Below are positions 29,668-48,754 of a stretch of DNA of 63,110 bases, piece by piece (within the stretch, counting starts at the first letter, position 1; each line of letters begins with the position of its first letter). The stretch is from Burkholderiales bacterium (GTDB lineage: Bacteria > Pseudomonadota > Gammaproteobacteria > Burkholderiales > Usitatibacteraceae): the NCBI GenBank assembly GCA_025360815.1, contig JANYBL010000110.1, positions 1 to 63,110 of the forward strand, written 5' to 3'. The notes below the pieces were generated by a model. It was not told the origin of the DNA. It saw nothing but the letters and a program-made list of their open reading frames with translations, and searched no databases. The position numbers and the translations under genes were made by a program.

Positions 29668-30672
29668 TTAAACCCCAGCCAAGCGCACCAAATCCGCCAT
29701 CAATGCATCAGGAATTTCGATGCCCGCGCTCGTGGATGCCATTGCAATTACTTCACGGCGGCCACCGGGCAAACGCACACCATCATCGGCCAGCATTGCC
29801 GCAACTAAAGTTTCAACCCGCTCAAAAAATACCTCGCGCCCTGCCAGTGAGGCAGGATCAATCACTAAAAATGCTTGCCCAATGCGCGGGCGGTTTCCCG
29901 CATCTACAAAAAACGAATCGGCTTCAAAGCCAAATGCGGCGCCGGTGAGGGCGCAACACAATAATTCAACCACCAATGCCAGCATCGCCCCTTTCACACC
30001 GCCTGCGGGCAGCATGGTACCTTCCATCCCGGCTTTGGGATCGGTGGTTGGCTGACCATCTTTGTCCAACGCCCAACCGAGCGGAATCGCCTCGCCTTTT
30101 TTGGCAGCGATCATAAGCTTGCCGCGCGCGACCTCTGATAGCGAGAGGTCAATCATCAGCGGCGCATCAAATTCACGCGGGAATGCAGCGGCAATGGGGT
30201 TGGTACCAAAAATCCCGCGCTTGCCGCCCCAAGCGGGCATAGCGGCGGGGGAATTGCTAAATGCCAAACCAACCATTTTTTCAGCAGCAACCTTTTCCAA
30301 GTGATAAGCGGCCATGCCGAAATGGTGGCTATTGGCCACTCCAACAAAACACGCGCCAGAAATCTTTGCCCGGGCTATCGCCTCAGTAATCGCCAACTCG
30401 CAAGCGGGAAATGCCAAACCTTCCTCCGCATCAACCAAACATGCGGCTGCTTTGCTGTTCGTAATTTTTGCCACGGCCGCGCCATTGGCACGACCATTAC
30501 GCAGATGGGTGGTGTATTGGAGTATGCGTGAGAGCCCATGCGAAGGCAGGCCCCGTGATTCGGCGTAGATGAGTGCGCGTACTGTTGCATCAGCGATAGC
30601 TGTTGACGCGCCTGCTAGTGTGAGGGTACGCGTGGCTAAATCAACGAGATGTTGTTGCGAATATTTGGGCAT
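29668..30672 (-). CDS. comC: Ldh2/MDH-2-type oxidoreductase, candidate (R)-sulfolactate dehydrogenase ComC
   Basis: This 334-residue NAD(P)-dependent enzyme belongs to the malate/L-lactate dehydrogenase-like (Ldh2) family. Visible family features are ESRGLPSHGLSRI near residue 47, NSHHFGMAAYHLE near 116 and GTNPIAAAFP. It is the last gene of a run with a SerA-like dehydrogenase and UxaA-family subunits. In known sulfolactate degraders, ComC and SlcC interconvert the two sulfolactate enantiomers through sulfopyruvate so that SuyAB can act on the R form. That same four-gene set is what suggests this role; from sequence alone it could also be a malate, lactate or ureidoglycolate dehydrogenase. 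Confidence 0.72.
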   Translation of the reverse strand: MPKYSQQHLVDLATRTLTLAGASTAIADATVRALIYAESRGLPSHGLSRILQYTTHLRNGRANGAAVAKITNSKAAACLVDAEEGLAFPACELAITEAIARAKISGACFVGVANSHHFGMAAYHLEKVAAEKMVGLAFSNSPAAMPAWGGKRGIFGTNPIAAAFPREFDAPLMIDLSLSEVARGKLMIAAKKGEAIPLGWALDKDGQPTTDPKAGMEGTMLPAGGVKGAMLALVVELLCCALTGAAFGFEADSFFVDAGNRPRIGQAFLVIDPASLAGREVFFERVETLVAAMLADDGVRLPGGRREVIAMASTSAGIEIPDALMADLVRLAGV

Positions 30673-30726
30673 ATATGGATAAATTGTTAAATCGCTGAAT
30701 CGTTTAATCGTTTAATCGCTAAGCAA

Positions 30727-31653
30727 TCAACGTAAAAGAAACTTAGAAACGCGCGCGGCAATCATACTACTGACGCGTTCATTCGATTCAGCAGTCACTC
30801 CCGCAATATGCGGCGTAAGAATCAAATTCGGGCAATCGGCAAGCCCAGAGCCATTCTTCAGGGGCTCAGTCTCAAAAACATCGAGCGCTGCGCCGCCGAG
30901 CTTTTTGGCTTTCAGCACAACCGCCAAAGCCGCTTCATCCACCACCCCGCCGCGCGCGGTGTTGATCAATACCGCATTGGGCTTCATCATCGCCAAGCGT
31001 TGTTGCCCGATCAGATTTTTAGTATCAGTCGTCAGGGGAATATGCAGCGTGACAACATCGCTTTCAGCAAGCAACGTATCAAGCGTGCGAAATTGCACAT
31101 TGTTTTCAGCCCAAATCAGTGCGTCGGCAGCGATCATCGAATCACTTGCCACGACTCGCATTCCCAGACCCTGTGCGAGCTTGGCGGTAAGTTGCCCGAT
31201 GCCGCCAAAGCCGACAATACCGAGCACCTTGCCGCCAATCTCGCGGCCATTCGAGAGCGCGTTGCGTGGCCATGCGCCTACTGCAACCGCATCCGATGAA
31301 CGATAGGTTCCGCGCAGCAACATCATGGCCGTGCCAATCACGTACTCGGCAACGGCCAGCGCATTCGCACCGGTTGCCGGAATCACCTCAATATTTTTTG
31401 CTTTGCAGGCAGGTAAATCAATATTGTCGAGCCCGACGCCAAGACGTCCCACCACCTTGAGCATTGGCGCAGATTGCAGCAGCGCGGTCGTGACTTGCGT
31501 CCGGTTGCGAACGATGACAGCATCGTAGTCTTTCAGCTCGACGAGCATATCGTCGGGTCGATCCACCAAAGTGGGATCGTAATTCGTATCGAACTGTTTT
31601 TTCAGCGATTCAACGGCAGCTTGATCCATGAATTCTGTGATGAGAATTTTCAT
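30727..31653 (-). CDS. slcC: SerA-like 2-hydroxyacid dehydrogenase, candidate (S)-sulfolactate dehydrogenase SlcC
   Basis: The 308-residue protein has the D-isomer-specific 2-hydroxyacid dehydrogenase layout: a split substrate domain around an NAD domain with GFGGIGQLTAKLAQGLGM. The catalytic Arg lies in NTARGGVVDEAAL, the Glu region near DVFETEPL, and the His in PHIAGVTAESN. The length fits SlcC of sulfolactate degraders, which oxidises (S)-sulfolactate to sulfopyruvate. It starts 15 bp after the large UxaA-like subunit and precedes the ComC-like gene. Without the neighbours it would be called a phosphoglycerate dehydrogenase-like enzyme. Confidence 0.75.
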   Translation of the reverse strand: MKILITEFMDQAAVESLKKQFDTNYDPTLVDRPDDMLVELKDYDAVIVRNRTQVTTALLQSAPMLKVVGRLGVGLDNIDLPACKAKNIEVIPATGANALAVAEYVIGTAMMLLRGTYRSSDAVAVGAWPRNALSNGREIGGKVLGIVGFGGIGQLTAKLAQGLGMRVVASDSMIAADALIWAENNVQFRTLDTLLAESDVVTLHIPLTTDTKNLIGQQRLAMMKPNAVLINTARGGVVDEAALAVVLKAKKLGGAALDVFETEPLKNGSGLADCPNLILTPHIAGVTAESNERVSSMIAARVSKFLLR

Positions 31654-31668
31654 GTTTGCATTTTCGGG

Positions 31669-32838
31669 CTACGCGCTTTCGTACAAACGTGTCAGCACAA
31701 ACTCGCGGTGACCAAGCGCTTCGGCTGCCGTTAATCGGCCATTGGCGGTTCGCAGCATCATGTCGAGTAATTTATCGCCCGCGTCGTCAAGCAGTAGCTC
31801 GCGCTGCAATAGGGCACAAGAATCGACGTCAATATGCTCGCTCATCGTGCGGACTGTGCGAGGGTTTGCGCAAATTTTAATCACCGGCAAAATTGGATTA
31901 CCGATTACATTACCCTGGCCTGTTGGGAAGAAATGCACTGTGAATCCGGCCGCCGCGCAGAGCGTCACCATCTCGGCTGCTGCCGAAGAAGAGTCCATAA
32001 ACCAGAGGCCGGGGCCGGTCGGCGTTTCAGCCTTGTCGAGCACGCCGTCAACCAAACATTTTTTGCCGATTTTTTGAATGTTGCCCATCGCTTTTTCTTC
32101 AATGGTCGTTAGGCCGCCGAGAATGTTGCCCTTGGTCGGCTGCGATTCAGAAAGGTCACTCGTCTTATGACGGTTTACCACATCCTGATAGCGGTTAAAC
32201 ATCGCCATGAAATCCTCGGCCACTTTCGGCGTGCGGCAGCGCTCAACCACCACTTTCTCCCCGCCGGTAATTTCGGTTGTCTCGCCAAACACCAGTGTGC
32301 TGCCGAGACCATAAAGCCTGTCAAATGCGCTGCCCACGGTTGGGTTTGCGCCACAGCCGGATGTCGTGTCGGATTCACCGCACTTGGTTGATACCCATAA
32401 ATCCGCCACGCCACATTCGACTCGATGCAATTCAGACGCATCTTGCAAAAACGCCCGCGCCGCTTTGGATGCACGCATGATCGTGTCGTGGTCACCATGC
32501 TGCTCAATACCAAAGCCCACCACCGGCTTGCCTGTTTTAGCGATGCCATCCACCACACGCTTGGTCCAGCCTTCTTCGATGCCAATCACCACGACGGCAG
32601 CCACATTCGGATTTGAACCCGTACCGATCAACGTTCGGAAATGCAAATCCAAATCTGCCCCAAACTGCAAACGGCCATAGGGGTGCGGGATTGCCATCAC
32701 GCCTTTGATGTTGTGCGCAACGGCTTCACAGGCGGCGTTGGACAAATCATCGACGGGCAAAATAATAACGTGGTTACGCACACCCACACGGCCATTCGCG
32801 CGCCGGTAGCCCCAGAAAGTGGTGTCTTTAGTAATCAT
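31669..32838 (-). CDS. suyB: UxaA-family large subunit, candidate (R)-sulfolactate sulfo-lyase SuyB
   Basis: This 389-residue protein matches the catalytic C-terminal part of altronate dehydratase-type lyases. It begins [20 protein letters not shown], then [17 protein letters not shown] and [11 protein letters not shown], and has the metal-binding signature region [15 protein letters not shown] and ETTEITGGE. It lacks the SAF domain, which is supplied by the separate small gene upstream. This split arrangement and size fit SuyB of the sulfo-lyase that cleaves (R)-sulfolactate to pyruvate and sulfite. The alternative is a split altronate or related sugar-acid dehydratase. Context with SlcC- and ComC-like genes favours SuyB. 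Confidence 0.78.
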
Positions 32839-32941
32839 ATGAGTTTCCTGAAAAATTCGTAGCGGTTTGATTTGATAACTCTAGAGAGCTAACGGTGGTC
32901 TGCAATAATGCCGATTCCGGCCTTATTGAAAAGACAAGCGA

Positions 32942-33223
32942 CTACCAACGCTTGGTTTTGATATTGTGGACATGCGCATGTTCACCAGCTTTGATCGGCG
33001 CAATGACGCGGCCAATATCGGTGCCGTATTTAAAAATTGTATCGCCGACGGCCATATCCTTGAGCGCGATCTTGTGGCCGATGGGAATATCCTGCAGCGC
33101 CTTGATCGCGATTTGCTTATCGTCATCCATGATCCACGCCGTTAAATCAGCACCGGCTGTAATGCCCTCAACCACGGCCACAGCCACGGTGTCTTTGGCT
33201 TCATGCAACACAAAATGAATCAT
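32942..33223 (-). CDS. suyA: UxaA-family SAF-domain small subunit, candidate SuyA
   Basis: The start at 33223 follows GGAGGAA at good spacing; the frame extends to 33319 without such a site. The protein of 93 residues (MIHFVLHEAKDTVAVAVVEG) is a single SAF domain: VEGITAGADLTAW, IPIGHKIALKDM, and the C-terminal HVHNIKTKRW. Such domains pair with the large UxaA-type chain to complete the lyase. It is the first gene of the four-gene operon and lies 89 bp from the shared 31-bp regulatory element. A 103-bp gap with no gene separates it from the large subunit. Confidence 0.8.
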   Translation of the reverse strand: MIHFVLHEAKDTVAVAVVEGITAGADLTAWIMDDDKQIAIKALQDIPIGHKIALKDMAVGDTIFKYGTDIGRVIAPIKAGEHAHVHNIKTKRW

Positions 33224-33290
33224 TTTTAATTCCTCCAACGATGGGCAGACAGGTATAGGACAATGAGCAACGTAAATATCGTTAACCTTG

Positions 33291-33342
33291 ATAATATTCA
33301 CTGCCGCGACTAAAGTCAATTAGGTCATCTATATGAGTTGTA
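33291..33342 (-). promoter_or_regulatory. suyA promoter with GntR operator, site 1 of the 31-bp element
   Basis: On the minus strand, -35 TTGACT (33314-33319) and -10 TATTAT (33291-33296) are 17 bp apart. The -35 lies inside a 31-bp element (33312-33342) that recurs with one difference at 49047-49077. Its core TCATCTATATGA (33325-33336) is a near-palindrome. On the other strand a weak TTGTAG and TATGAT (33361-33366) could serve gntR, so the element could control both genes. Confidence 0.8.
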
Positions 33343-33404
33343 GCTTTTCGCTTGGTTCGTTATGATGGATCTGTCATTGCACGTAACCTTTAAATATAAC
33401 CCTC

Positions 33405-34214
33405 ATGCCAAAAATCGCAACGGATCACATGCACCGCAAATGGGAAGACTCGTCAAGGCATCACAAACTCGCCGCCGGTGCCGCATTGGCTACGCCGCTC
33501 TACAAAGAAATCAAACGCCTCTTAACCGAGACCATCAGTGCCGGCGAATGGAAGCCTGGTGCGGCAATTCCCGCTGAGTGGATGCTATCGGAGCGTTTTA
33601 AAGTTGCCGTCGGCACAGTGCGTAAAGCAGTTGACGAATTGGTGAATGAAAACATTCTGATTCGCCAGCAAGGGCGCGGCACGTTCGTCGCGGCCCATAA
33701 CCGTGCGCGCCTGATGTTTCATTTTTTTCATATTGTGAAGAGTGATCGCGTCGATAGCGCCAAAGACACACCCCTCGTTGAAATGCTTTCATTTCGCAAA
33801 GGCAGCGCGAATATTGAGGAGGCCGCGCATCTCGGCATCGCCGTTTCAACAAAGGTCTATCGGATTCGCAATGTGTTGAGGCTTGTTGATAAGCCGATTA
33901 TTTTTGATGCCATTACGATCCCGCAAGCGCTGTTTCCCAAGCTCACTGCCTCAACATTCAAAGGTCGGCCGAACACGATTTATCATCTTTATCAGTCCGC
34001 CTTTGATATCACCGTGGTTCGTTCTGCCGAGCGGTTACGCGCGAGGTTGGCCGATATCGAAACCGCCGAATTGCTTGGCGTAAAAGTCGGCGCACCGCTC
34101 CTAGAGATTCGCCGCGTGGCGATGAGCTTTAACGATGCGCCAGTTGAATTTCGGCGCTCGCTGGTGAACACGGAACATTACGAATATTTTAGTGATTTGG
34201 CGAAGAATAGTTAA
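33405..34214 (+). CDS. GntR/HutC-family regulator with UTRA domain
   Basis: The 269-residue protein has an N-terminal winged helix (residues about 30-98, LYKEIKRLLTETISAGEWKP, then MLSERFKVAVGTVRKAVDEL and RQQGRGTFVA). A UTRA ligand-binding domain fills the rest. It is divergent from the suyA-like operon and convergent with the sugar operon, so it sits between the two gene sets. The shared 31-bp element, one copy of which overlaps its own upstream region, makes it the likely regulator of both. The ligand may be the sulfosugar or a catabolite; this is inference. A later ATG at 33429 is a possible start. Confidence 0.88.
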   Translation: MPKIATDHMHRKWEDSSRHHKLAAGAALATPLYKEIKRLLTETISAGEWKPGAAIPAEWMLSERFKVAVGTVRKAVDELVNENILIRQQGRGTFVAAHNRARLMFHFFHIVKSDRVDSAKDTPLVEMLSFRKGSANIEEAAHLGIAVSTKVYRIRNVLRLVDKPIIFDAITIPQALFPKLTASTFKGRPNTIYHLYQSAFDITVVRSAERLRARLADIETAELLGVKVGAPLLEIRRVAMSFNDAPVEFRRSLVNTEHYEYFSDLAKNS

Positions 34215-34372
34215 CCGCCCCACGGACGAAAATATGCCTTCCTCGCGCTGCTTCGGCGGCTACCAATTGAAGCGACCGAAAATCCATCACAAGCGCTCAT
34301 CACCGAAACGAGCACTGCCTTGGATCACGCCAGCGTAAAACTTGCAATGCGCGATTTGTTAGCAACAGAAGC

Positions 34373-35173
34373 CTAGCCCGCAACTGAGACCTGTGCTAAG
34401 CCTGCATCAACAATAATATTCTGCCCGGTAATGCCATCAGAATCATCTGCTGCCAAGAACAGTGCGGTGCGTGCAACATGTGCCGCGTCGAGCCGATATT
34501 TCAAACACTGCAAGTCAATAAATTTTTTATCGTCATCCACACCACGCCAAAGCGCCTCTTGCCGCGCCGTCACAATTGCTCCGGGAACCAGCGTATTGAC
34601 ACGAATGTTTTGCTCGCCCAGCTCGCGCGCCAGCGTGCGGGAAATGCCCGATATTGCCGCCTTTGATGCAGTGTAACCGATCAAATTTGAGCGGCCACGC
34701 ATCCACGAAACCGAGCCCATATTGATGATTGAGCCGCCGCCTGCAGCGGCCATTCCGGGAGCAACTTGCTGAATTGCGAAGACATGGTGTTTGAGGTTCA
34801 GGCCTAAATAGTTGTCCCACGATTCGGACGTGAGTTCGGCGAGGGAGTGGCGGGTATCGTTGCCCGCGTTGTTAATCAATACGCGAATGGCGCCGAGTTC
34901 GCGTTCCACATCCGCCAGCTTCGCTTGATAAGCGGCGGTATCACGAATATCACAGACGATGAATTGTGGCCTGTGCGCGCATGTTTTTGCCAGCTTTTCG
35001 GCTAGCGCATCGCTTGCCGTTTGATCAATATCGCAAAATGCTACATGTGCCCCCTGCAGCGCAAAGTGCTCCACCAGTGAAGCGCCAATCCCTGAGCCGC
35101 CGCCAGAAATAAACACCACACGATGATTGAGGCTCGGATATTGCGTCATCTCATCAACCTTTTTAAACTTCAT
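34373..35173 (-). CDS. SDR dehydrogenase, candidate sulfoquinovose (aldose) 1-dehydrogenase
   Basis: The 266-residue protein is a classical short-chain dehydrogenase: GGGSGIGASLVEHF for the cofactor, CDIDQ after the second strand, NNAGND, the catalytic Ser in INMGSVSWMRG, and YTASK with Tyr and Lys. The start at 35173 overlaps the stop of the lactonase gene by 1 bp; residue 9 (35149, MTQYPSL) is an alternative with an AAAGG site. An Asp ending the second strand usually favours NAD. In an Entner-Doudoroff type pathway it would oxidise the free sugar to its lactone, the substrate of the lactonase upstream. The exact sugar is inferred from the cluster. Confidence 0.8.
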   Translation of the reverse strand: MKFKKVDEMTQYPSLNHRVVFISGGGSGIGASLVEHFALQGAHVAFCDIDQTASDALAEKLAKTCAHRPQFIVCDIRDTAAYQAKLADVERELGAIRVLINNAGNDTRHSLAELTSESWDNYLGLNLKHHVFAIQQVAPGMAAAGGGSIINMGSVSWMRGRSNLIGYTASKAAISGISRTLARELGEQNIRVNTLVPGAIVTARQEALWRGVDDDKKFIDLQCLKYRLDAAHVARTALFLAADDSDGITGQNIIVDAGLAQVSVAG

Positions 35174-36111
35174 CAGTCCACATAATGCGGCTCGGCTCGG
35201 CCTGCTACATCTACCCTACACGCAAAAATACCACCTGCAGTTGATTGCGCCACTAACTCATCCACTGACGCGCCATCACGGGCAGTGGTAATGTACATCG
35301 TCCGCAAATCAGCCCCGCCGAAGGCTAACATGGTCGTGCGTTTTGCAGGCACGTTCACTTTGGCGACGATCTCACCAATCGGGGAAAACCGCAGCACACA
35401 GCTGCCTTCGTATTGCGCGCTCCAATAACAGCCTTCGCTATCCACGGCAGCGCCATCGGGGCGGCCATCGTAACTTGCTTGTGTTTTATCGTCAGGACGT
35501 TTAACAAAAATTTCACGTGCACCGGCACGGCCCGTTTCAACATCGAACGTAAAACGATAGACGACGTGGTTTGGCGTATCGGATTGATAAACCGTTTTAC
35601 CATCCAGCCCAAACCCCAGGCCGTTGCTCACTTTCACGCCATAATTGCGACTATTTTCAACACCCACACCCCAGCCCAAGCGGGCTTTACCCTTGTCTAA
35701 ACAATACATTTCCGCCAGCGCGGCCGTGCGTGGCTCATACATGGCACCTGCCCAAAAACGCCCTGCAGCATCGCAACGACCATCATTAAAACGCATGTTA
35801 GATGTATCGTAAGGTGCATCGGCAATTTTTTTCAATTCCCCGTTTTCGGGATAGAAGCGATACCAACCATCGCGCAAAGCGGCGACCAATCCGCGGTTGG
35901 CGGCGATGCCAATGCAGCCGGGTTCGCAAGGCATGGCCCACGCTTGATTTTGTTTCGTTTCAGGATCAAACCGGTTGATCGTGTGGCTCGAAATGTCGAC
36001 CCAATACAACATCTGTTCGGCCACACTCCAGAGTGGGCATTCGGCGAGTTTAGCGCGAGCATCGAATGCCAATTCAGCTTGGTATTGTCTAACCATTTTT
36101 GCTTTTTCCAT
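35173..36111 (-). CDS. SMP-30/gluconolactonase family lactonase
   Basis: This 312-residue six-bladed propeller hydrolase shows the metal ligands of the family: Glu in KLAECPLW, Asn in KVSNGLGFGLD, Asp in RPDGAAVD, and the substrate loop MRFNDGRCD. These enzymes open sugar lactones to aldonates. In this cluster it would hydrolyse the lactone made by the SDR enzyme (sulfogluconolactone in the sulfo-ED route, xylonolactone in a pentose route). Its start overlaps the epimerase gene by 23 bp; residue 6 is another possible start. The lactonase family call is strong. Confidence 0.88.
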   Translation of the reverse strand: MEKAKMVRQYQAELAFDARAKLAECPLWSVAEQMLYWVDISSHTINRFDPETKQNQAWAMPCEPGCIGIAANRGLVAALRDGWYRFYPENGELKKIADAPYDTSNMRFNDGRCDAAGRFWAGAMYEPRTAALAEMYCLDKGKARLGWGVGVENSRNYGVKVSNGLGFGLDGKTVYQSDTPNHVVYRFTFDVETGRAGAREIFVKRPDDKTQASYDGRPDGAAVDSEGCYWSAQYEGSCVLRFSPIGEIVAKVNVPAKRTTMLAFGGADLRTMYITTARDGASVDELVAQSTAGGIFACRVDVAGRAEPHYVD

Positions 36112-37024
36112 CTTTACCGGTGCCTTTATTCGGCAGCATTTCCTGCATCGAAACCGTCATTGATACCTCCATGCTGTCGCCACGTCCCAGCAGTTGCATG
36201 CCGGTATCAGCCACACCTTTGGCCGCAAGATTAAACCCATCGTTGATATGGCTAACGGGCTCTAAGGCCATGAAGTTTCGGCCGTCATCGGGCGCGTAAC
36301 AAATAAGCTGCTGGCAATTGCTGCTGGCTTCAATAGTCGTGCGGTGCGTTGGGTATTCGATTACCGCCTGTCGCCCCCAACCGGTAAAACAGTTATCAAC
36401 TTTCCAGCCTTCGACAGAACGTAGCTGCCGAAAGTCAGCGCTGGCGGGCGTCTCCACCCATTCAGTGGGCAAGGACTCGGCGTCCATTTTCCACATGCCT
36501 TTCCATTCGGCTTGCAGCTTCGCAGCAGGAATAGTGGGAAAAAACGGATGGAAGCCCAACCCGGCGGGCATCGGCGCATCATCCAAATTGCACACGCTGA
36601 TCGTCAAGCGCAATCCATCGGCCGACAGTTGAATATGCTGCTTTGCTTCGCAGGCAAACGGCCAATCGTTATCGGCCGCGTGCCTGAGGGTGAGCCGCGC
36701 ACTGTCCACACAGCTGGTTAAAACCTGCCAAGCGCGCTGCCAACCAAAGCCGTGTACCGCATGCAGCTCCGGCGGGAAATTTTGGCGAAGCACATAGCGT
36801 TTATCTCCAACAACCAGCTTGGCGCGGGCGATGCGATTGGAATACGGCATCAACGCATATGCGCCCATTTGCCGTACTAAGCCCTGCTCAATAGCCGAGT
36901 CCGGTGCGCGGCGCAAAACAGAATGGCCACGCCACGTATAGCGCGCGATCGCAGCACCGATATCGGGGCACAGCAAAACCTCGCTATTGGCGTTTTTGAG
37001 ATTGATTACATTGGCTGAAGTCAT
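36089..37024 (-). CDS. Aldose 1-epimerase (mutarotase)
   Basis: The 311-residue protein belongs to the galactose mutarotase-like superfamily. It shows the sugar-binding segments LMPYSNRIARAKL, HAVHGFGWQRAW and GLGFHPFFP, and a likely catalytic Glu in the stretch FMALEPVSH. It would interconvert alpha and beta anomers of the sugar released by the glycosidase so that the dehydrogenase gets its preferred form. Its start overlaps the GH31 stop by 4 bp (ATGA), which supports joint translation. Confidence 0.88.
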   Translation of the reverse strand: MTSANVINLKNANSEVLLCPDIGAAIARYTWRGHSVLRRAPDSAIEQGLVRQMGAYALMPYSNRIARAKLVVGDKRYVLRQNFPPELHAVHGFGWQRAWQVLTSCVDSARLTLRHAADNDWPFACEAKQHIQLSADGLRLTISVCNLDDAPMPAGLGFHPFFPTIPAAKLQAEWKGMWKMDAESLPTEWVETPASADFRQLRSVEGWKVDNCFTGWGRQAVIEYPTHRTTIEASSNCQQLICYAPDDGRNFMALEPVSHINDGFNLAAKGVADTGMQLLGRGDSMEVSMTVSMQEMLPNKGTGKDGKSKNG

Positions 37025-41142: not shown

Positions 41143-41156
41143 TGGACTATTTTTAG

Positions 41157-42434
41157 CTACCGCACGGCGCGGCCAACGCGCAATTCAATTTCAGCCAAGG
41201 CTTCTGACGGTTTTTTCACGCCCGCCATGACGGTGTTGGTGTTGATCCGAAGTGCATCAGAGACCATTTTGTACATCGGCGTAACGGGGCGCGGACGCGC
41301 TGTGAGCACGACCGGTAAAGCGTCGGCGAACCAAGGGATCGCCTTGGTAACATCCTGATCCTCGTAAACCGAGGCAAAAACTGGATGGAACGATCCGCGA
41401 ATCGCCAACTGCTTTGATGTTTCCGGGCTCGACAGCCAACGAATCAGCGCAGCCGAAGCCGCCTTATTTTTTGAGAATGCTGACACCGCCCAATTCCATC
41501 CACCCATGCAAGAAACGGATTTACCGCCATCCATTGCGGGTAGCTTGGCCACACCTACTTTGTTGGCCACTTGTGTATCAGCGCCCGATTCAAAATGATT
41601 CCACGCGTAGCCCCAGTTCACGGCGAAAATGACGCGACCCGCTTGAAACTCTTTACGGGTGTCGTCTGTTCCTACTTCAGCAACATTTTTCTTGGCAACA
41701 CCTTGGTTCACCATGTCGCGCCACATGGCAAGCCCAGCCTCGGCCTTTGGGGCGTCAAACGTCAATTTGCCGTCACGAAGCATCTCGCCACCGAGGCTCC
41801 AATAGGGCAGTAAAAATGTACAGACGGTTCCTTCAATTGCTTTTGCCTGAAAGCTCAGGCCTTGCAAGGTGGCGTTGTGCTCGCCAGCAGAAATCGTGCG
41901 CGCCATATTGGCCAATTCGGGCCATGTCGTTGGTGGCTGAAAACCATATTTTTTGAGCAAATCTTTGCGATAGTAAAGGAACATCGAATCGGCGAATGCG
42001 GGTAGTGCAATAATTTTGCCATCAATTGTATTGGCCTCCCGGTACGCGGGGAGATAATGGCTCATGGCCGCTTCCAGCGCCGTGCTCGAGCCGAAATAGG
42101 CATTCAGCGGCTCCGCCCATCCGGCTGCTGCAAATTGCGCTGGGCGCACGACATCAATTAAAAAAACATCTAGCGTAGTGTCTTTGGCCGTTAACACCAT
42201 ATTCAAGTATTTTTGATGCAAGTCCGAAGTCGCGCCGCCAATTTCGAGGTCAATTTTAATGCTGGGATTCACTGCCATGTAGCTTGCAAATAGTTCGCGC
42301 ATTAAATCCGGGCGTTGCTGGCCGCCAATATAAACCTTTAACCGCGTTGTTGTCTGCTCGGCAAACGCATTCTCGGCGACAGCGAGCAAAATTGCGGCTG
42401 ACAGCACAAAAATAGTACGGAACATCGTGCGCAT
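41157..42434 (-). CDS. Extracellular sugar-binding protein of the ABC transporter
   Basis: This 425-residue periplasmic protein has a signal peptide (IFVLSAAILLAVAENAFA) and the layout of group 1 solute-binding proteins. Visible segments are DVFLIDVVRPAQFAAAGWAEPL, YYRKDLLKKYGFQPPTTW and MGGWNWAVSAFSKNK. It should bind a mono- or disaccharide-sized glycoside; which one cannot be read from sequence. It lies 2 bp from the ATPase gene and 14 bp from the first permease gene. Confidence 0.9.
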   Translation of the reverse strand: MRTMFRTIFVLSAAILLAVAENAFAEQTTTRLKVYIGGQQRPDLMRELFASYMAVNPSIKIDLEIGGATSDLHQKYLNMVLTAKDTTLDVFLIDVVRPAQFAAAGWAEPLNAYFGSSTALEAAMSHYLPAYREANTIDGKIIALPAFADSMFLYYRKDLLKKYGFQPPTTWPELANMARTISAGEHNATLQGLSFQAKAIEGTVCTFLLPYWSLGGEMLRDGKLTFDAPKAEAGLAMWRDMVNQGVAKKNVAEVGTDDTRKEFQAGRVIFAVNWGYAWNHFESGADTQVANKVGVAKLPAMDGGKSVSCMGGWNWAVSAFSKNKAASAALIRWLSSPETSKQLAIRGSFHPVFASVYEDQDVTKAIPWFADALPVVLTARPRPVTPMYKMVSDALRINTNTVMAGVKKPSEALAEIELRVGRAVR

Positions 42435-42436
42435 GA

Positions 42437-43624
42437 TTACGGTGCGCCGCTCGTTGAGGCGTTTGCGAAAGCGCTCATGGCAGCGTTAAGAATCGCACTA
42501 CCTGTCGCCGGATCAAACAAATGAAACTTGTCCATATTGACCCAGAGCGTAATGTTCTCGTTTTGTTTGAGCCGCGCAGCAGGCGGCAATCGCGCAATCA
42601 ATTCGCCACCGCTACATTGCAGGGTTACTAATGTCTCAGCACCGAGCGGCTCGACAACGATCACTTTTGCCGGCATCGGCGCATCGTTTTTGCCGGTTGC
42701 TTCCAGCGCCAAATTCTCCGGGCGAATTCCGAATTCAATTGGCTTGCCGTGCCATGACAGATCAAGCGGTGTGGCAACCGCAGGCATCACCAACAGCGTG
42801 CTCGTGGCGTCCGAGCCAAGCTTTATTTTCAATTTACCATCTTCATTGGCGATAACACTGGCCGATAGAAAATTCATGGGTGGCGAACCCGTGAACCCTG
42901 CGACAAATTTTGAAACAGGTTGATTGTAAATCTCATCCGGCGTGCCGACCTGCATAATATTACCGCCGGAAAGTACGACAATGCGCTCAGCTAACGTCAT
43001 CGCTTCCGTTTGATCGTGCGTGACGTAGATCGCGGTGGCGCCAATACGCTGGTGCAGTTTTTTAATTTCGGTCCGCATTTCGGAGCGCAATAGCGCATCG
43101 AGGTTTGATAGCGGCTCATCAAATAAAAACAACTTCGGCTGGCGTACGATCGCGCGACCCATTGCAACACGCTGCCGCTGCCCGCCCGAAAGCGCCCGCG
43201 GTTTACGATTAAGCAAATGGTCGATCTTTAAAATCGTAGCGACATCGTGAACACGTTTTTCAATGTCGGCCTTAGCGAGTTTGCGCAGCTTTAAACCGAA
43301 CGCCAAATTATCAAATACGGTTTTATGCGGATAGAGCGCGTAGTCTTGAAACACCATCGCGATATCGCGTTCCCGCGGCGGCAGATCATTGACGACACGT
43401 CCATCAATCGAAATTTCACCTTCGGAAATGCCTTCAAGGCCGGCAACCATGCGCATCAGGGTGGATTTTCCGCAGCCGGATGGGCCGACAAAAACGACAA
43501 ACTCGCCTTTTTTGATTTCAAGGTTAATGCCGTGCAAAACCTTCACGCCAGTTTTGGTGCCGTTGTCGTAAACCTTGACGACTTGACTGAACCGAACGCC
43601 GGATGCAGATTGAGCGTTGTTCAT
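42437..43624 (-). CDS. Sugar ABC transporter ATPase, UgpC/MalK type
   Basis: The 395-residue ATPase has GPSGCGKST (Walker A), the signature LSGGQRQRVAMGRAI, and Walker B LFLFDEPLSNLD, with the switch His in YVTHDQTEAM. A C-terminal TOBE/regulatory region of about 140 residues follows, as in MalK and UgpC. It powers the two permeases of this operon. Seven bases separate it from the aldolase gene upstream. Confidence 0.93.
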   Translation of the reverse strand: MNNAQSASGVRFSQVVKVYDNGTKTGVKVLHGINLEIKKGEFVVFVGPSGCGKSTLMRMVAGLEGISEGEISIDGRVVNDLPPRERDIAMVFQDYALYPHKTVFDNLAFGLKLRKLAKADIEKRVHDVATILKIDHLLNRKPRALSGGQRQRVAMGRAIVRQPKLFLFDEPLSNLDALLRSEMRTEIKKLHQRIGATAIYVTHDQTEAMTLAERIVVLSGGNIMQVGTPDEIYNQPVSKFVAGFTGSPPMNFLSASVIANEDGKLKIKLGSDATSTLLVMPAVATPLDLSWHGKPIEFGIRPENLALEATGKNDAPMPAKVIVVEPLGAETLVTLQCSGGELIARLPPAARLKQNENITLWVNMDKFHLFDPATGSAILNAAMSAFANASTSGAP

Positions 43625-43631
43625 CGGGATC

Positions 43632-44465
43632 TCAATATGCGCCTGTTGTCAGCGGCTTTGCCAGCGCGGGCTTCATTGCGGCAAAAAATGCATTGGCTTG
43701 GCGCATCATCATGCCCATATCGGAGGCAATGGCAACATAGTTGTAACCATAATCAATAAATTTTTGCACCATCTCCGGCGTTGGCCCGACGATACCGATC
43801 GGTTTGCCAATCGCATGAGCACGCTCTGCGCATTTTTTTAAAACTGCCTGAATATCCGGATGCGCGATATTACCCAAATGCCCCATCGCCGCTGAGAGAT
43901 CCCCCGGCCCCATAAATAGCGCATCGACACCCTCAACGGCTGCAATGGCCTCTAACTGTTCAACCGCGGCCGGTGTTTCTAACTGAATCATGCAGGTGAT
44001 CGCGTCATTGGCGCGGCTACCGTAATCTGCGAGCGTGCCGTAGCGACTGCCACGATGCATGGCCGCATAACCTCTCGTGCCGATAATACCGTGCGCCTTT
44101 TCACCAGGCTGCGGATATTTTGTGGCAGCCACAGCCCGCTGTGCTTCATCGGCATTTTGTACAAACGGGAACATCAATGTCTGTGCGCCAATGTCTAATG
44201 CTCTTTTAACCATCACCGCATCGTTCCACGCTAAGCGGACGACTGGTACTGCTTTTGTGCCTGCAATCGCCTGAAGAATTTGATACGCATCACGATAGTC
44301 AATCGGCACATGCTCCATATCGACCACCAGCCAATCAAATCCAATACAGCCCATCGCCTCTGCCGTGGCTGAGTTGCCGGACATGAGCCAAGTGCCCAAT
44401 GGGATTGTTGGTTCAGCCAGCAAGGCGCGGAAAGGGTTGTTTAAAATATCCATGGTGGAATCCAT
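43632..44465 (-). CDS. HpcH/HpaI aldolase, candidate 2-keto-3-deoxy-6-sulfogluconate aldolase
   Basis: This 277-residue class II aldolase has the family features: VVDMEHVPIDY with the base-side Glu, PVVRLAW with the pyruvate-binding Arg, TLMFPFVQNADEA, the metal ligand Glu in MIQLETPAAV and Asp in FMGPGDLSAAMG. It splits 2-keto-3-deoxy acids to pyruvate and an aldehyde. With an IlvD/Edd dehydratase upstream it forms the lower half of an Entner-Doudoroff type path; the aldehyde would be sulfolactaldehyde in the sulfo-ED version. No clear ribosome binding site distinguishes 44465 from 44453 as the start. Confidence 0.85.
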   Translation of the reverse strand: MDSTMDILNNPFRALLAEPTIPLGTWLMSGNSATAEAMGCIGFDWLVVDMEHVPIDYRDAYQILQAIAGTKAVPVVRLAWNDAVMVKRALDIGAQTLMFPFVQNADEAQRAVAATKYPQPGEKAHGIIGTRGYAAMHRGSRYGTLADYGSRANDAITCMIQLETPAAVEQLEAIAAVEGVDALFMGPGDLSAAMGHLGNIAHPDIQAVLKKCAERAHAIGKPIGIVGPTPEMVQKFIDYGYNYVAIASDMGMMMRQANAFFAAMKPALAKPLTTGAY

Positions 44466-44477
44466 AAAATTATACGT

Positions 44478-46229
44478 TCAATAAATCGATGGCTCCGGCG
44501 TTTTCGCCGTCCCCGATAAGAAGTCAAAATCGCAACCGTCATTGGCCTGCGAAACATGCTGAATGTAGAGCTTGGTGTAACCACGCTGAAAAATTTGCGC
44601 GGCCGGCTTCCAAGCGGAGCGTCGGCGCGAGAGTTCATCATCAGGCACCAGCATGTTAAGCGATCTAGCGTCCACATCGAGCTCAATGATATCGCCCGTT
44701 TGCACCAGCGCAAGTGGTCCGCCAATCGCAGCCTCCGGCGAAATATGCACCACGCAGCTTCCAAAATGGGTGCCGCTCATCCGCGCATCCGAGAGCCTAA
44801 CCATGTCACGAATGCCCCGCTGAAGCAGCTTTTTGGGAATCGGTAAATTGCCCCATTCGGGCATGCCTGGCGCACCTTGCGGACCGCCATTTCGTAAGAT
44901 AATCACCGTGTTCTCATCAACATCTAAATCGGGCAGATGAATTTGCGCAAGCATTTCGGCGTTGGAGTCGAATACCAGCGCACGGCCTTCGTGTTTAAAA
45001 AATTTCGGGCTCGCAGCCGATGGCTTGATGATCGCGCCGTCCGGACAAAGATTGCCACGCAGGACAGCAAGCGCAGCGCCGGGTGCGACAGGATTGGCAA
45101 CATGACGAATGACGGTTGCATCATCATTGACCGCAGCGGCGATATTTTCGCCTAGCGATTTGCCGGTGATTGTCATCGCATCGAGTTTCAAATGGGGTTT
45201 GATTTCCTGGAGCAACGCTGGCATACCACCGGCGAAGAAAAAATCTTCCATCAATTTATCGCCCGACGGAAACAAATTGGCGATGACCGGAATGCGCCGT
45301 GCCATCGCGTCCATTTCGTCCAGACTGAGCTTGATGCCCGCCCGCCCTGCCATCGCAATCAAATGAATCGCCGCGTTCGTAGAGCCGCCCAGCGCCATGT
45401 AAGCGGCAACAGCATTGGCGAATGAATCATCGGTTAGGAACGCGGATGGCTTTAAATCCTCCCACACCATATCGACAATCCGCGCCCCGCACGTTGAAGC
45501 CATCCGCACGTGATTTGCGTCCATGGCGGGAATGCTACTCGCACCCGGCAAGGTCAGTCCCATCGCCTCAACAATACTCGTCATGGTGCTGGCGGTACCC
45601 ATGGTGTTGCAGGTGCCTGGCGAACGGGTCATTTTCGCCTCAAGCCTGATCCACTCCGGCTGATTGATGTTGCCGGCTACATACTCATCCCAGAATTTTT
45701 TGGTATGAGTTCCGGCACCCACCGTTTGACCCTTGTAACGATCGTTGAGCATCGGCCCGGCGGGACAGAAGATAGTCGGAATATCCATGCTAATCGCGCC
45801 CATTAGCGTGCCCGGCGTGGTTTTATCACAGCCGGCCAGCAAGACCACACCATCCACTGGATGCGATCGTAACAACTCCTCGACTTCCATCGCCAGGAAA
45901 TTTCGGTAGAGCATCGTGGTCGGCTTTACCATCACTTCGCCAAGCGAAAGCGCGGGCAATTCAACCGGAAAACCACCTGCCAACAAGATGCCGCGCCGCA
46001 CATCTTCGGCGCGCTCCCTCAAATGCGCGTGGCAAGGCGAAAGATCACTCCAAGTGTTGATGATGGCGATAACCGGGCGGTTTAAAAATTCATCACGCCG
46101 CAACCCCATTTGCTGCAGCCGTTGCCGGTGCGCAAATGAGCGCATATCGTCCCGCGCCAACCAGCGTTGACTACGCAGCGATTCTAGGGGGCGAAGCGTG
46201 TTTTGTGTGTTGGCGGACATGGCATCCAT
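44478..46229 (-). CDS. IlvD/Edd-family sugar-acid dehydratase, candidate sulfogluconate dehydratase
   Basis: The 583-residue iron-sulfur dehydratase shows cluster-ligand Cys residues in SPCHAHL, LAGCDKTTPG and SPGTCNTMGTA, plus GGSTNAAIHL and the C-terminal LSDARMSGTHFGSCVVH. It is closest in pattern to the arabinonate/xylonate dehydratase branch, which works on sugar acids rather than dihydroxyisovalerate. It would remove water from the aldonate to give the 2-keto-3-deoxy acid cleaved by the aldolase 12 bp downstream. The sulfonated substrate is inferred from the regulon; a plain pentonate or hexonate remains possible. Confidence 0.87.
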   Translation of the reverse strand: MDAMSANTQNTLRPLESLRSQRWLARDDMRSFAHRQRLQQMGLRRDEFLNRPVIAIINTWSDLSPCHAHLRERAEDVRRGILLAGGFPVELPALSLGEVMVKPTTMLYRNFLAMEVEELLRSHPVDGVVLLAGCDKTTPGTLMGAISMDIPTIFCPAGPMLNDRYKGQTVGAGTHTKKFWDEYVAGNINQPEWIRLEAKMTRSPGTCNTMGTASTMTSIVEAMGLTLPGASSIPAMDANHVRMASTCGARIVDMVWEDLKPSAFLTDDSFANAVAAYMALGGSTNAAIHLIAMAGRAGIKLSLDEMDAMARRIPVIANLFPSGDKLMEDFFFAGGMPALLQEIKPHLKLDAMTITGKSLGENIAAAVNDDATVIRHVANPVAPGAALAVLRGNLCPDGAIIKPSAASPKFFKHEGRALVFDSNAEMLAQIHLPDLDVDENTVIILRNGGPQGAPGMPEWGNLPIPKKLLQRGIRDMVRLSDARMSGTHFGSCVVHISPEAAIGGPLALVQTGDIIELDVDARSLNMLVPDDELSRRRSAWKPAAQIFQRGYTKLYIQHVSQANDGCDFDFLSGTAKTPEPSIY

Positions 46230-46363
46230 TGTAAGCGGATGCCTTTCGTCGAATGAAATTCGCCAACAGACATCCGTCTATTTGCCGCTTGGCAAATCGC
46301 GCTTCAGGGAGCGCAATGTGCCAAGCGCTGCGGCAACAATTAAGATAACGATTAGGACAAAGA

Positions 46364-48754
46364 TTAGAAATCGTAGCGGAAATTGATACCGAAATACCGC
46401 TTATCGTCGCGTGGAACAGCTCTCACATAATAAGTGCCGCCAGTCGCTAGTAATGACGAATACGATTTATTCGCGAGGTTTTTACCGAGCAGTGCGACCC
46501 GCCATCCGCTTGCAGGATTCGATAATGCGATGGTCGCATTAAAAATTCCATAGGCTGACTGAACGGCATCCGGTGACTGCGTCAGCTCATACTGAACCTT
46601 ACTTTGCCAGTTGTAGTCCGCGCCTAAATCCAAGCCCATGCCGTCAGCCATGGCAATCTTGTAATTGCCACGGAAGTTCACTTTCCAATCTGGCGAAAAC
46701 GGCAATGGTTGCCCATTAATATTACATTCTAGCGCTGCAGTTGCCGACAACGTAGCCGGGCACGGGAAGTTATCCACTCGAGCATTAATACGTGCCGCCG
46801 CACCGGACACGGTGAAGTTTTTCGAGACCTTCGCCGCAAAATCCATCTCGATACCGCGGGTTGAAACTGCACCCGCGTTAATCAGCCGCGTGACGATCGT
46901 GCCCGCGACGGTATCTGGCACATTGGCTTGGTAATTGTCGTACTTGGTATTGAACGCAGCAACGTTTAAACGCAGGCGATTGTCAAATAGCGTGGATTTC
47001 AGGCCAACCTCGAATGAATCTGAAGTCTCGGGCTTCAATGGATTGGTTTGCAGATTGGTCATGTTAAAAAACACGTTGTACGCAGGGCCTTTGTAGCCAC
47101 GCGAGTAGGTGGCGTAGACCATCATGTCTTTATTGAGATCAAATTGCGGTCCGATGCGCCCTGAGGTTGCTTTTTCTGTGACCGAACCGGCGTTCGATAC
47201 GGCGGGCTGCACGCCGGGAAACGCGGCAGGTTGTGTGGAGACGCGCCCGTGATAATACGACAGCTTGTCGTCTGTAAAACGTAACCCGGCAACACCACGC
47301 ATTGCGCTGCTAAAATTAAACGTACCTTCGCCGAACAACGATGCACTCTTGCTGCGGGTGCCGTAGTCGGCTACGCCAGAATCAACGGTAAAGGAACCCG
47401 CCGAACAAGGTTTTAATCCTGACGGAAGTGCAGCAGCCGTGGTCGCGTTGCAACGCGTCACCTCGCGCTGATAACGCTCGGTATCTTTGCCGTCGATATA
47501 AAACAAACCGGCAACATAGTCAAAGAACTGGCCTTTGGGCGATGCGATCCGCAGCTCTTGCGAGGTTTGTTCAAAATTTAAATCGCCGCGATCTTGCGAT
47601 TGCGGAAATTGTTGGTACGGCACCGATAAACGATCACCGTCTTGAAACTGCGTGTTTTCCCACTTGCGATACGCCGTGATAGAGGTGAGTGTGTAGGCGC
47701 CCAAATTCCAATCGACCTGGGCCGACAATCCGGAGTTAATATCTTCCACGCGAGTTTGGATATTGCTGGTGATTTCGCGGTTGGTGCTGCTCGGCAGAAC
47801 AGGCGCAATCGCGAATGGGAACAGCGGATTAGTGTTGACGCGACCCGACCCGTAAAATGTTGCCTTGTTATTGATCACCACGCCGTTCGGCCCGTTATCA
47901 TTGGACTTCATGTAGTCGGCAATGACAGAAATTTTCAGATCCGCATTGGGCGTGAAATTGAATCGCGCGCGCGCGCCGTCGCGTTTGTAACCGCTTACGG
48001 AACTGCCGTCCGCTAAATTTTTAACGTTGCCCTGATACTCGCCATGCATTACCGCAATGGAGGCATTGACCAAATTAGGCGAAATTTCACCAGACGCACC
48101 TAGGCGCAGACGCTTTTCATTGCCCTGAAAATACGAGATGTCGACGTAACGTTCCGTATCTTTGACGGGGCTGCGGGAAATAATATTAATCACACCGGCC
48201 GATGCATTCCGGCCAAACAGTGTGCCTTGCGGGCCACGTAGCACTTCAACGCGGTCAATATCGAGCAAATCGAGCGTAGATTGGCCGGGGCGCGAATAAA
48301 CGACACCGTCAATCACCGTTGAAACCGTCGGCTCAACGCCAGGGGAGGTTGAAATCGTGCCAACCCCGCGAATAAACAACGAGGTGTCTTTGTTGGATGC
48401 ACCGGTACGGAAATTGACAGTCGGCGTTTGTGAGGTGATCGAGCCGAGCGTATTTAAATTGGATTGCTCAAGCTGCGCACCACTGATAACCGTAATCGCA
48501 ATCGGCACAGTCTGCAGCGATTCGGAGCGCTTAGTGGCCGTAACGACGATGGTTTCTAACTGCGCATCGTCAGTCTTCGCAGGCGGCTTAGCAGCACCAG
48601 TAGCTTGCTGTGCCTCGGCGGCAGATGCCATTAACGTCGCCGCGATCAAAGCGGGCAGCAATCGACAACGGGGGCGGCGCTCCAGTTGATATTGAAACAC
48701 GACATCGGGATTCGATGCCGGCGTGTGAGTGTTGAATCTTTGAGTCAATTTCAT
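46364..48754 (-). CDS. TonB-dependent outer-membrane receptor
   Basis: The start at 48754 follows GGAGGAG; an upstream frame to 48823 lacks this. The 796-residue protein has a long N-terminal leader before a signal peptide (LLPALIAATLMASAAEAQQ). A TonB box-like ETIVVTATKR follows, then a plug domain (VDVLRGPQGTLFGRNASAGVINI pattern, split as RVEVLRGPQGTLFGRNA and SAGVINI) and a barrel ending in aromatic YFGINFRYDF. It transports an unknown ligand across the outer membrane. It is the first gene of the sugar operon (134 bp before the dehydratase) and carries the shared 31-bp element upstream, so a glycoside ligand is likely. Confidence 0.9.
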   Translation of the reverse strand: MKLTQRFNTHTPASNPDVVFQYQLERRPRCRLLPALIAATLMASAAEAQQATGAAKPPAKTDDAQLETIVVTATKRSESLQTVPIAITVISGAQLEQSNLNTLGSITSQTPTVNFRTGASNKDTSLFIRGVGTISTSPGVEPTVSTVIDGVVYSRPGQSTLDLLDIDRVEVLRGPQGTLFGRNASAGVINIISRSPVKDTERYVDISYFQGNEKRLRLGASGEISPNLVNASIAVMHGEYQGNVKNLADGSSVSGYKRDGARARFNFTPNADLKISVIADYMKSNDNGPNGVVINNKATFYGSGRVNTNPLFPFAIAPVLPSSTNREITSNIQTRVEDINSGLSAQVDWNLGAYTLTSITAYRKWENTQFQDGDRLSVPYQQFPQSQDRGDLNFEQTSQELRIASPKGQFFDYVAGLFYIDGKDTERYQREVTRCNATTAAALPSGLKPCSAGSFTVDSGVADYGTRSKSASLFGEGTFNFSSAMRGVAGLRFTDDKLSYYHGRVSTQPAAFPGVQPAVSNAGSVTEKATSGRIGPQFDLNKDMMVYATYSRGYKGPAYNVFFNMTNLQTNPLKPETSDSFEVGLKSTLFDNRLRLNVAAFNTKYDNYQANVPDTVAGTIVTRLINAGAVSTRGIEMDFAAKVSKNFTVSGAAARINARVDNFPCPATLSATAALECNINGQPLPFSPDWKVNFRGNYKIAMADGMGLDLGADYNWQSKVQYELTQSPDAVQSAYGIFNATIALSNPASGWRVALLGKNLANKSYSSLLATGGTYYVRAVPRDDKRYFGINFRYDF

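Follow-up and report, generated by a model that had tools for sequence, protein, structure and literature searches.

Two neighboring operons with a shared operator are predicted to take sulfoquinovose to pyruvate and sulfite in a Burkholderiales bacterium

Contig JANYBL010000110.1 of a Burkholderiales bacterium (63,110 nucleotides, hereafter the window; contig C31 of a 3.74-Mb genome that is 99.99% complete) holds two neighboring operons. With a probability of roughly 0.88, they form one regulon that takes sulfoquinovose (SQ) and SQ glycosides to pyruvate and sulfite within one cell. The gene identities, the diagnostic residues, and the shared operator with its conservation are read directly from the sequence. 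An initial annotation of this DNA had proposed that a single bacterium joins the sulfo-Entner-Doudoroff (sulfo-ED) pathway to the sulfolactate enzymes SlcC, ComC and SuyAB under one operator, and this core is borne out by a SmoF-type binding protein, the arginines of an SQ dehydrogenase, the identity of SuyAB and the operator itself.

The mineralization of SQ is usually described as the work of two members, in which a C3 sulfonate released by one bacterium is desulfonated by a second. If the regulon is real, a recurrent one-cell arrangement in the Burkholderiales changes which organisms count as complete mineralizers of SQ, a gigaton-scale sulfonate (PMC13372026), and the shared operator provides a sequence handle for finding them even where the genes are unlinked.

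In the mechanism that we propose, SQ glycosides would enter through a TonB receptor and an ABC importer of the SmoF type, and a family 31 glycoside hydrolase (GH31) would free SQ from the glycoside. A mutarotase, an SQ dehydrogenase, a lactonase, an IlvD-type dehydratase and an HpcH aldolase would then produce pyruvate and (S)-sulfolactaldehyde by the sulfo-ED route. An aldehyde dehydrogenase encoded outside the locus would oxidize the latter to (S)-sulfolactate, SlcC and ComC would interconvert the sulfolactate enantiomers via sulfopyruvate, and SuyAB would cleave (R)-sulfolactate to pyruvate and sulfite. One GntR/UTRA protein would bind a palindromic operator that lies over the −35 box of both promoters, so that both operons would open together.

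Architecture of the locus

The sulfosugar operon runs leftward from 48754 in the order tonB receptor, ilvD-type dehydratase, aldolase, ATPase, binding protein, two permeases, GH31, mutarotase, lactonase and short-chain dehydrogenase/reductase (SDR). The gntR gene (GntR/UTRA, plus strand) separates it from the likewise leftward suyA-suyB-slcC-comC operon. Every gene named in the initial annotation is an open frame at its given place and of the family given there, as judged by Pfam. The features are:

29668..30672, minus: putative ComC-like sulfolactate dehydrogenase, Ldh2 family (Pfam Ldh_2, 326.8 bits)
30727..31653, minus: putative SlcC-like sulfolactate dehydrogenase, SerA family (Pfam 2-Hacid_dh)
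31669..32838, minus: SuyB, large subunit of (R)-sulfolactate sulfo-lyase (Pfam GD_AH large part)
32942..33223, minus: SuyA, small subunit, 93 amino acids (75% identity to the Cupriavidus pinatubonensis SuyA of the same length)
33291..33319, minus: suyA promoter-like site, TTGACT-17-TATTAT (10/12 matches in a consensus scan)
33316..33340: operator copy 1, between suyA and gntR, TCAATTAGGTCATCTATATGAGTTG
33405..34214, plus: GntR/UTRA regulator, HutC type (Pfam UTRA 97.5 bits, GntR 61.8 bits), here labeled SuyR, a name coined in this work
34373..35173, minus: predicted sulfoquinovose 1-dehydrogenase, SDR (top Protein Data Bank (PDB) match 9gwu)
35173..36111, minus: predicted sulfogluconolactonase, SMP-30 family (Pfam SGL, 246.7 bits)
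36089..37024, minus: predicted sulfoquinovose mutarotase, aldose epimerase (Pfam Aldose_epim, 124.9 bits; 24% identity to YihR)
37021..39309, minus: GH31 glycosidase of a YicI-like clade, predicted sulfoquinovosidase (SQase)
39380..40231, minus: CUT1 permease (Pfam BPD_transp_1)
40228..41142, minus: CUT1 permease (Pfam BPD_transp_1)
41157..42434, minus: SmoF-like binding protein, predicted to bind sulfoquinovosyl glycosides (PDB 7nbz, SmoF)
42437..43624, minus: transporter ATPase, UgpC/MalK type (NCBIfam UgpC subfamily, 478.8 bits, over the cut-off of 432)
43632..44465, minus: predicted KDSG aldolase, HpcH/HpaI family (Pfam HpcH_HpaI, 135.6 bits)
44478..46229, minus: predicted sulfogluconate dehydratase, IlvD/Edd family (Pfam ILVD_EDD_N and ILV_EDD_C)
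46364..48754, minus: TonB-dependent outer-membrane receptor (Pfam Plug and TonB_dep_Rec)
49026..49054, minus: promoter-like site of the sulfosugar operon, TTGACT-17-TAGTAT (9/12 matches in the consensus scan)
49051..49075: operator copy 2, upstream of tonB, TCAAGTAGGTCATCTATATGAGTTG

The frame of the TonB receptor is open to 48823, and a GGAGG stands ahead of 48754 on the coding strand. For the ComC-like protein the top NCBIfam match is L-sulfolactate dehydrogenase (215 bits, under its cut-off of 500). SuyA has no Pfam match and a weak NCBIfam match to galactarate dehydratase (27.9 bits).

The predicted desulfonation operon encodes SuyAB-type subunits

SuyB and SuyA are 80% and 75% identical, respectively, to C. 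pinatubonensis HN-2 proteins encoded after the annotated hpsN and hpsO, and SuyAB is the (R)-sulfolactate sulfo-lyase of C. pinatubonensis JMP134 (PMC9594981). By contrast, SuyB shares 29% identity with the E. coli altronate dehydratase UxaA. The stretch that encodes a 64% homologue in P. versutus also carries a histidinol-dehydrogenase-like gene and genes for a sulfate exporter, a transhydrogenase and a sulfite oxidase. In a tree, 18 putative SuyB proteins fall on one side of a branch supported at 100/99 and three UxaA-type proteins of 37–40% identity on the other; in a seven-sequence tree that includes E. coli UxaA, the SuyB clade has support of 100/100, the outgroup branches being long in these trees. 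The placement against altronate dehydratases that the initial annotation had suggested as a check thus puts the UxaA-type subunits with SuyAB and not with the sugar-acid dehydratases. The window SuyB is the sole GD_AH_C match in its genome, and SuyB at 78% identity or above occurs in 27 of the 61 genomes searched (its own included).

A SerA-type and an Ldh2-type dehydrogenase adjoin SuyAB in the window, in the manner of the SlcC/ComC pair. We compared the best 80 of 585 SuyB relatives, the flanks of many of these loci being cut. ComC homologues lie near SuyAB in many of the 80 loci, as do SlcC homologues (55–67%), and a gntR homologue is present in 60. The enantiomer roles of SlcC and ComC are predicted from these likenesses.

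Import and sulfo-ED genes point to a sulfosugar

SmoF, which binds sulfoquinovosyl glycerol, is by far the best PDB match of the binding protein (479.7 bits, the runner-up reaching 203.8). The SDR matches the P. putida SQ dehydrogenase (PpSQDH) first (278.8 bits; second match 241.4). In PpSQDH, Arg152 forms a salt bridge with the sulfonate and Arg154 holds a sulfonate-binding water (PMC12133307). The window SDR retains both in the stretch SWMRGR, whereas the next two PDB relatives read SWMLKN and SWHQSG; all 14 SDRs compared from other sulfosugar-type clusters also have arginines at both positions (WMRGR, WLRGR or WMRRR).

The sulfo-ED core trio, a PF08450 lactonase, a PF00920 dehydratase and a PF03328 aldolase, stands in the same cluster. 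The dehydratase is 69% identical to its counterpart in the Rhizobium sp. WSM4643 cluster and 74% to that of the Burkholderia multivorans cluster, and the transporter parts are 51–73% identical to those of these two clusters, which also encode YihQ-type GH31 and TauE-type proteins. Each of the four core steps of sulfo-ED has a candidate gene, and it is this core pathway, rather than the complete published set, that we propose for the locus.

Automatic annotation suggests a different substrate for three of these genes. The NCBIfam names of the SDR, GH31 and dehydratase lean toward xylose or arabinose, so that GH31 could release D-xylose from an α-xyloside, XylB/XylC/XylD-like enzymes and the aldolase could convert this to pyruvate and glycolaldehyde through the Dahms route, and the UxaA-type pair could be a sugar-acid dehydratase. 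The GH31 has α-xylosidase as its top match but scores under the cut-off (447.8 bits against 606), the SDR falls under the D-xylose dehydrogenase cut-off (304.1 against 400), and the dehydratase exceeds that for L-arabinonate dehydratase (924.9 against 882); the Rhizobium dehydratase, which lies within a sulfo-ED-type cluster, bears the same label. Against xyloside use stand the SmoF-type binding protein, the SQ-dehydrogenase arginines, the 80% identity of SuyB and an operator held in common with suyA. In addition, members of this GH31 clade are clustered with a sulfoquinovose-isomerase-like protein in Deinococcus and, in gammaproteobacteria, with TauE, a TauD-type dioxygenase and a homologue of sulfite oxidase. 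We rejected xyloside use as highly improbable, despite the annotation of the three genes.

Another alternative is a 6-sulfohexose other than SQ, such as its C4 epimer sulfofucose. Among published tandem pathways, that of Paracoccus comes nearest; it degrades sulfofucose and is likewise described without a recognized sulfolactaldehyde dehydrogenase, and the configuration at C4 cannot be read from sequence. However, the dehydratase here belongs to PF00920 as in the SQ pathway, whereas the sulfofucose route uses a PF13378/PF02746 enzyme (PMC12421959), and SQ dehydrogenase and SmoF are the closest relatives of the SDR and the binding protein, respectively. We regard a sulfosugar other than SQ as unlikely and SQ as the probable substrate.

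One operator type links the two operons

The sequence TCAANTAGGTCATCTATATGAGTTG is common to the suyA-gntR spacer and the stretch before tonB and defines a 25-bp operator. At up to three mismatches, the window contains two sites and each of 100 shuffles contains none; the whole genome contains the same two sites only, and a reversed control pattern has none. The single operator of the initial annotation is therefore real, with one copy per operon promoter. Each copy overlaps the −35 box of a promoter-like site that reads leftward (33319-33291 and 49054-49026). When up to four mismatches are allowed, the operator recurs upstream of suyA in 25 of the 80 SuyB loci, and in C. pinatubonensis it lies between hpsP and suyA with two mismatches.

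We built a weight matrix from 29 suyA-promoter sites and no sulfosugar-promoter sites. As the training sites were picked for their likeness to the window site, only the scores at sulfosugar promoters count as a test. These are 39.6 at the window tonB site, 34.0 and 28.8 in the related genomes G010 and G014, and 30.7, 31.5, 33.1, 33.3, 34.3 and 41.1 in G411, G186, G064, G220, G149 and G249, compared with a maximum of 10.6 in shuffled loci (40 mononucleotide shuffles). Thus, 9 of the 11 clusters of the order that carry the GH31 clade and have their promoter region in view (window included) bear the operator at the sulfosugar promoter; in G012 and G008 that promoter lies outside the view. In five of these genomes (G411, G064, G220, G149 and G249) SuyB is encoded elsewhere, unlinked. 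Other sulfosugar loci score low: 7.1 in Rhizobium, 4.2 in B. multivorans and 3.1 in Deinococcus.

The best forms of the operator are perfect or near-perfect 21-bp palindromes (for example, TCATATAGATGATCTATATGA in G249), as expected of a site for a GntR dimer. We infer that the GntR protein encoded at 33405..34214 binds it. Because the operator overlaps the −35 boxes, the protein probably acts as a repressor, and because the operator also precedes suyAB in organisms where no sulfosugar genes are linked to it, the inducer is probably a C3 sulfonate such as sulfolactate.

The gene set recurs in relatives

The gene set was found again in four relatives. Its order is identical in G010, G012 and G008 (the contigs of the latter two stop within the cluster); as these belong to one genus, they are not independent cases. 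In G014, slcC is relocated upstream of tonB with the sulfosugar operon, comC lies about 10 kb away, and a SuyZ-type exporter gene follows suyB. In G010 and G020, too, the cluster has the tonB receptor at its upstream end; in G014 the receptor follows slcC. Farther afield, five further loci among the 80 carry sulfo-ED genes no more than 10 kb from SuyAB: Limnohabitans (L065), Rubrivivax (L071), Piscinibacter defluvii SH-1 (L080), a Burkholderiales metagenome-assembled genome (L083) and Polaromonas sp. P2-4 (L120). Due to the cut flanks, this is a lower bound. The stretches covered for P. defluvii SH-1 and Polaromonas sp. P2-4 showed no member of the GH31 clade. L083 is a single unidirectional array of ilvD, aldolase, transporter, GFO/IDH/MocA protein, SDR, suyA, suyB, slcC and comC genes, in which the GFO/IDH/MocA protein is a possible NAD-dependent SQase of the GH188 type.

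Several observations weigh against a single regulon. We found no sulfolactaldehyde dehydrogenase gene in the locus by Pfam, NCBIfam or a PF00171 search, so that the gene set, described as apparently complete in the initial annotation, lacks this step. The closest candidate among 10 PF00171 matches in the genome is a GabD-like protein on contig C63, which is 69% identical to E. coli GabD and 63% to the Rhizobium enzyme. It shares Arg171, Arg289 and a Trp-Asn-Phe stretch, the proposed sulfonate-binding residues (PMC10599462), with the Rhizobium enzyme, and since it is nearer to GabD and E. coli GabD has the same residues, they do not discriminate. The congener G004 has a 95% identical SuyB and no sulfosugar operon, slcC or gntR at that locus, and no SmoF-like protein was detected in its genome at E up to 1e-90. 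G186 has a sulfosugar cluster with the operator and no SuyB. The matrix scan found no operator in the sulfosugar clusters of G020 and G335; no dehydratase gene was seen in the G020 stretch, and that of G335 holds aldolase, mutarotase and lactonase homologues only, without a dehydratase, binding-protein or SDR gene. Among the linked loci, L065, L080 and L120 show an operator copy at suyA only, and none was found in L083.

Some of these points would suit two independent pathways, in which SQ is taken only as far as excreted sulfolactate, SuyAB serves external sulfolactate, and the two operons are adjacent by chance. The missing dehydrogenase and the loci with the operator at suyA alone fit this view, as do the 75 of 80 SuyB loci with none or one sulfosugar gene in view (many flanks being cut). 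It is opposed by the two operator copies in the genome, exactly one per operon, by the operator in the sulfosugar promoters of the five genomes with unlinked suyAB, by slcC upstream of the sulfosugar operon in G014, and by the single array of L083. We judge chance adjacency to be very unlikely and retain the two-operon regulon.

Sulfolactaldehyde oxidation would then fall to an enzyme encoded elsewhere, and sulfite could leave by export or oxidation. The genome encodes one SuyZ-type exporter, on contig C83 and 53% identical to the P. versutus protein, as well as one Mo-co_dimer protein, on contig C105, that partially matches the P. versutus sulfite oxidase (35%); the genome scan at up to three mismatches found no operator at either gene. 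The congener G004 retains suyAB, comC and one lactonase gene (L022), a picture of partial loss. The exporter gene lies near rplS/trmD/rimM-like genes as read by eye (L175), and a region of this type also flanks Suy or sulfosugar genes in G006 and G014 (L025, L029), possibly marking the ancestral site of the cluster.

The glycosidase belongs to a clade apart from YihQ

By bit score, the GH31 protein is closer to YicI (334) than to YihQ (about 120). Depending on the method, it is 24–26% identical to YihQ, 26–31% to two other YihQ-type enzymes and 30–34% to YicI, while the three YihQ-type enzymes are 47–64% alike. Its catalytic aspartate pair aligns as D422 and D491. In a tree in which the long YihQ and YicI branches meet, and in which YihQ and the L159 protein have an unusual composition, the clade is split from YihQ at 100/100 and from YicI at 100/100 and 100/99. 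This separate branch, together with a phenylalanine at the place of YihQ Y508, rules out membership in the YihQ type.

The genomic context of this clade is consistent. Within the order, 20 of 399 genomes have a match at E up to 1e-100. All 12 matches of at least 46% identity (own genome included) lie beside sulfo-ED-type genes, and of eight at 34–38% none of the five neighborhoods read (L162-L166) contains such genes, those of G343, G287 and G369 having been left out. Across the phylum, 2 of 398 genomes, both gammaproteobacteria, encode a 50% homologue (E up to 1e-130). Its gene neighbors encode a TauD-family dioxygenase, an aldo-keto reductase, a sodium symporter and homologues of TauE, GntR, SuyZ and sulfite oxidase (assigned by Pfam for G759), a cluster that resembles the published sulfo-ASDO route with SqoD and SquF (PMC12890257); no SmoF-like protein was found in a search of the two genomes. 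Among 204 plasmid records with a match, we retrieved the neighborhood of the best, a 46% homologue, WP_015231244.1, from Deinococcus peraridilitoris. It lies beside a SmoF-like binding protein (48%), a protein that matches sulfoquinovose isomerase (139 bits, under the cut-off of 700) and nothing else in NCBIfam at E up to 1e-10, a PfkB kinase, an aldolase and a protein of the succinate-semialdehyde-dehydrogenase type. This stretch (L133:5388-17051) is likely a sulfo-EMP2-like cluster and has transposase and integrase genes close by. Altogether, all 16 clade members examined (G012 counted) lie in sulfosugar-type clusters of three kinds. Viral contigs scanned with the GH31 yielded no relative.

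We also considered that a YihQ-type SQase encoded elsewhere might do this work. The B. multivorans enzyme, used as query against 15 genomes of clade members, gave no match above 35% identity, and its matches were the clade itself except for one protein each in G428 and G064; no YihQ-type GH31 was found in these genomes, nor in the 30-kb plasmid stretch that was covered for Deinococcus. We rejected this candidate.

The clade has two motifs of its own, DGRA...TR and WEYP. DGRA...TR is present in 15 of 16 members; the exception, G335, has also lost the nucleophile aspartate. In YicI, C307 and F308 decide between xyloside and glucoside specificity, and YicI D306-C307-F308-W309 aligns to D-G-R-A-A-W in the clade. 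The SQase residues of YihQ are R301, W304 and Y508, of which R301 and W304 take part in sulfonate binding; the numbering of these two fits the YihQ sequence. An L-INS-i alignment places GH31 R299 and W302 on YihQ R301 and W304, whereas the default MAFFT alignment places R305 on R301, and W302 is offset by one residue in G186-type and Deinococcus proteins (DGRAW). An AlphaFold2 model of the single GH31 sequence was poor (mean pLDDT 32.6), so the position of R299 relative to the sulfonate rests on the alignments. The context thus argues strongly that the GH31 is an SQase acting on SQ glycosides, while the residues are suggestive, because the two alignments conflict and W302 is shifted in some members.

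From these data we consider a broader proposal fairly probable, with distinctly less confidence than the regulon itself. The GH31 would represent a second SQase lineage apart from YihQ, annotated as α-xylosidase, with R299 at the position from which YicI contacts the sugar on its C5/C6 side, and would serve three or more sulfosugar pathways across the Burkholderiales, the Gammaproteobacteria and Deinococcus. The GntR protein would be a pathway-wide regulator from SQ to sulfite, acting through one operator type over import, sulfoglycolysis and desulfonation, whether linked or unlinked. If so, SQ users are undercounted in surveys that look for YihQ or GH188.

Four degenerate proteins from another family of the order nest within the clade on a long branch, so that the clade is not made up of sulfosugar-cluster proteins alone. 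These homologues (32–38%; L162:8912-11026, L163:9427-11478, L164:8535-10652 and L165:8293-10386) lack the catalytic aspartate pair (for example, CDAQIAIP and GPQAENTW) and are apparent pseudo-glycosidases. The L159 protein has lost its nucleophile as well.

Relation to known pathways

The union of sulfoglycolysis with SuyAB is already known: Stewart et al., 2025 demonstrate it for sulfofucose and describe finding both within one bacterium as 'unusual' (PMC12421959), and Wei et al., 2022 list sulfo-TAL together with SuyAB (PMC9594981). To have called this locus the most novel system in the DNA was thus too strong. Rather, sulfo-ED of SQ with SuyAB under one operator would be a variant, and the GH31 lineage the bolder addition. 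Among the open-licence papers listed by our searches, we saw none described as covering sulfo-ED with SuyAB under one operator or a YicI-type GH31 SQase. According to a 2026 review, some SQ degraders that cleave a C–C bond also hold genes for short-chain products, and its table gives sulfolactate, mineralizable by other bacteria, as the end product of sulfo-ED.

The tandem pathway of Paracoccus wurundjeri shares the SDR, SMP-30 lactonase, HpcH aldolase, ABC importer, SlcC, ComC, SuyA and SuyB in one cluster. It differs in its substrate and its dehydratase family, which is not IlvD/Edd, and the excerpted account identifies no glycosidase and reports no shared operator (PMC12421959). The sulfo-ED systems of Pseudomonas putida SQ1 and Rhizobium leguminosarum SRDI565 share the SQ dehydrogenase, lactonase, IlvD-type dehydratase and KDSG aldolase, but export sulfolactate (PMC9594981). 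The Rhizobium sp. WSM4643 cluster has a SmoF-like importer in common with the window and differs in having a succinate-semialdehyde-type dehydrogenase, a YihQ-type GH31 and TauE.

Extended sulfo-TAL clusters of Thermotogae and Chloroflexi also unite sulfoglycolysis and SuyAB, by a transaldolase route and in other phyla. The SlcC/ComC/SuyAB systems of Chromohalobacter and Paracoccus and HpsNOP-SuyAB of C. pinatubonensis share the racemizing dehydrogenases and the sulfo-lyase, but are fed by sulfolactate or 2,3-dihydroxypropane-1-sulfonate (DHPS) and not by a sulfosugar operon (PMC9594981). In P. versutus, as in the window, a GntR gene adjoins suyA. YihQ and YicI share with the window GH31 the family and the catalytic aspartate pair, and differ by their low identity and by the motifs particular to the clade.

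Neighboring genes

Left of the cluster, Pfam identifies obg, a proB-like kinase, a polyprenyl synthetase, a PilS/PilR-type pair and a ribonucleotide reductase. A protein with four beta/gamma-crystallin stretches (PF00030, 197 bits) is encoded at 22453-23754, and an aldehyde dehydrogenase at 25045-26778 exceeds the NCBIfam cut-off for L-piperidine-6-carboxylate dehydrogenase (811.7 against 730). A PF00144 serine hydrolase of the beta-lactamase/esterase family (28315-29643) lies tail to tail with comC and could be a sulfolipid esterase; a 57–62% homologue adjoins comC in G006 (L029). On the other side, at 49198-56393, a TetR gene (minus strand) upstream of the sulfosugar promoter is aimed at it, and an RND efflux system (plus strand) diverges from the TetR gene.

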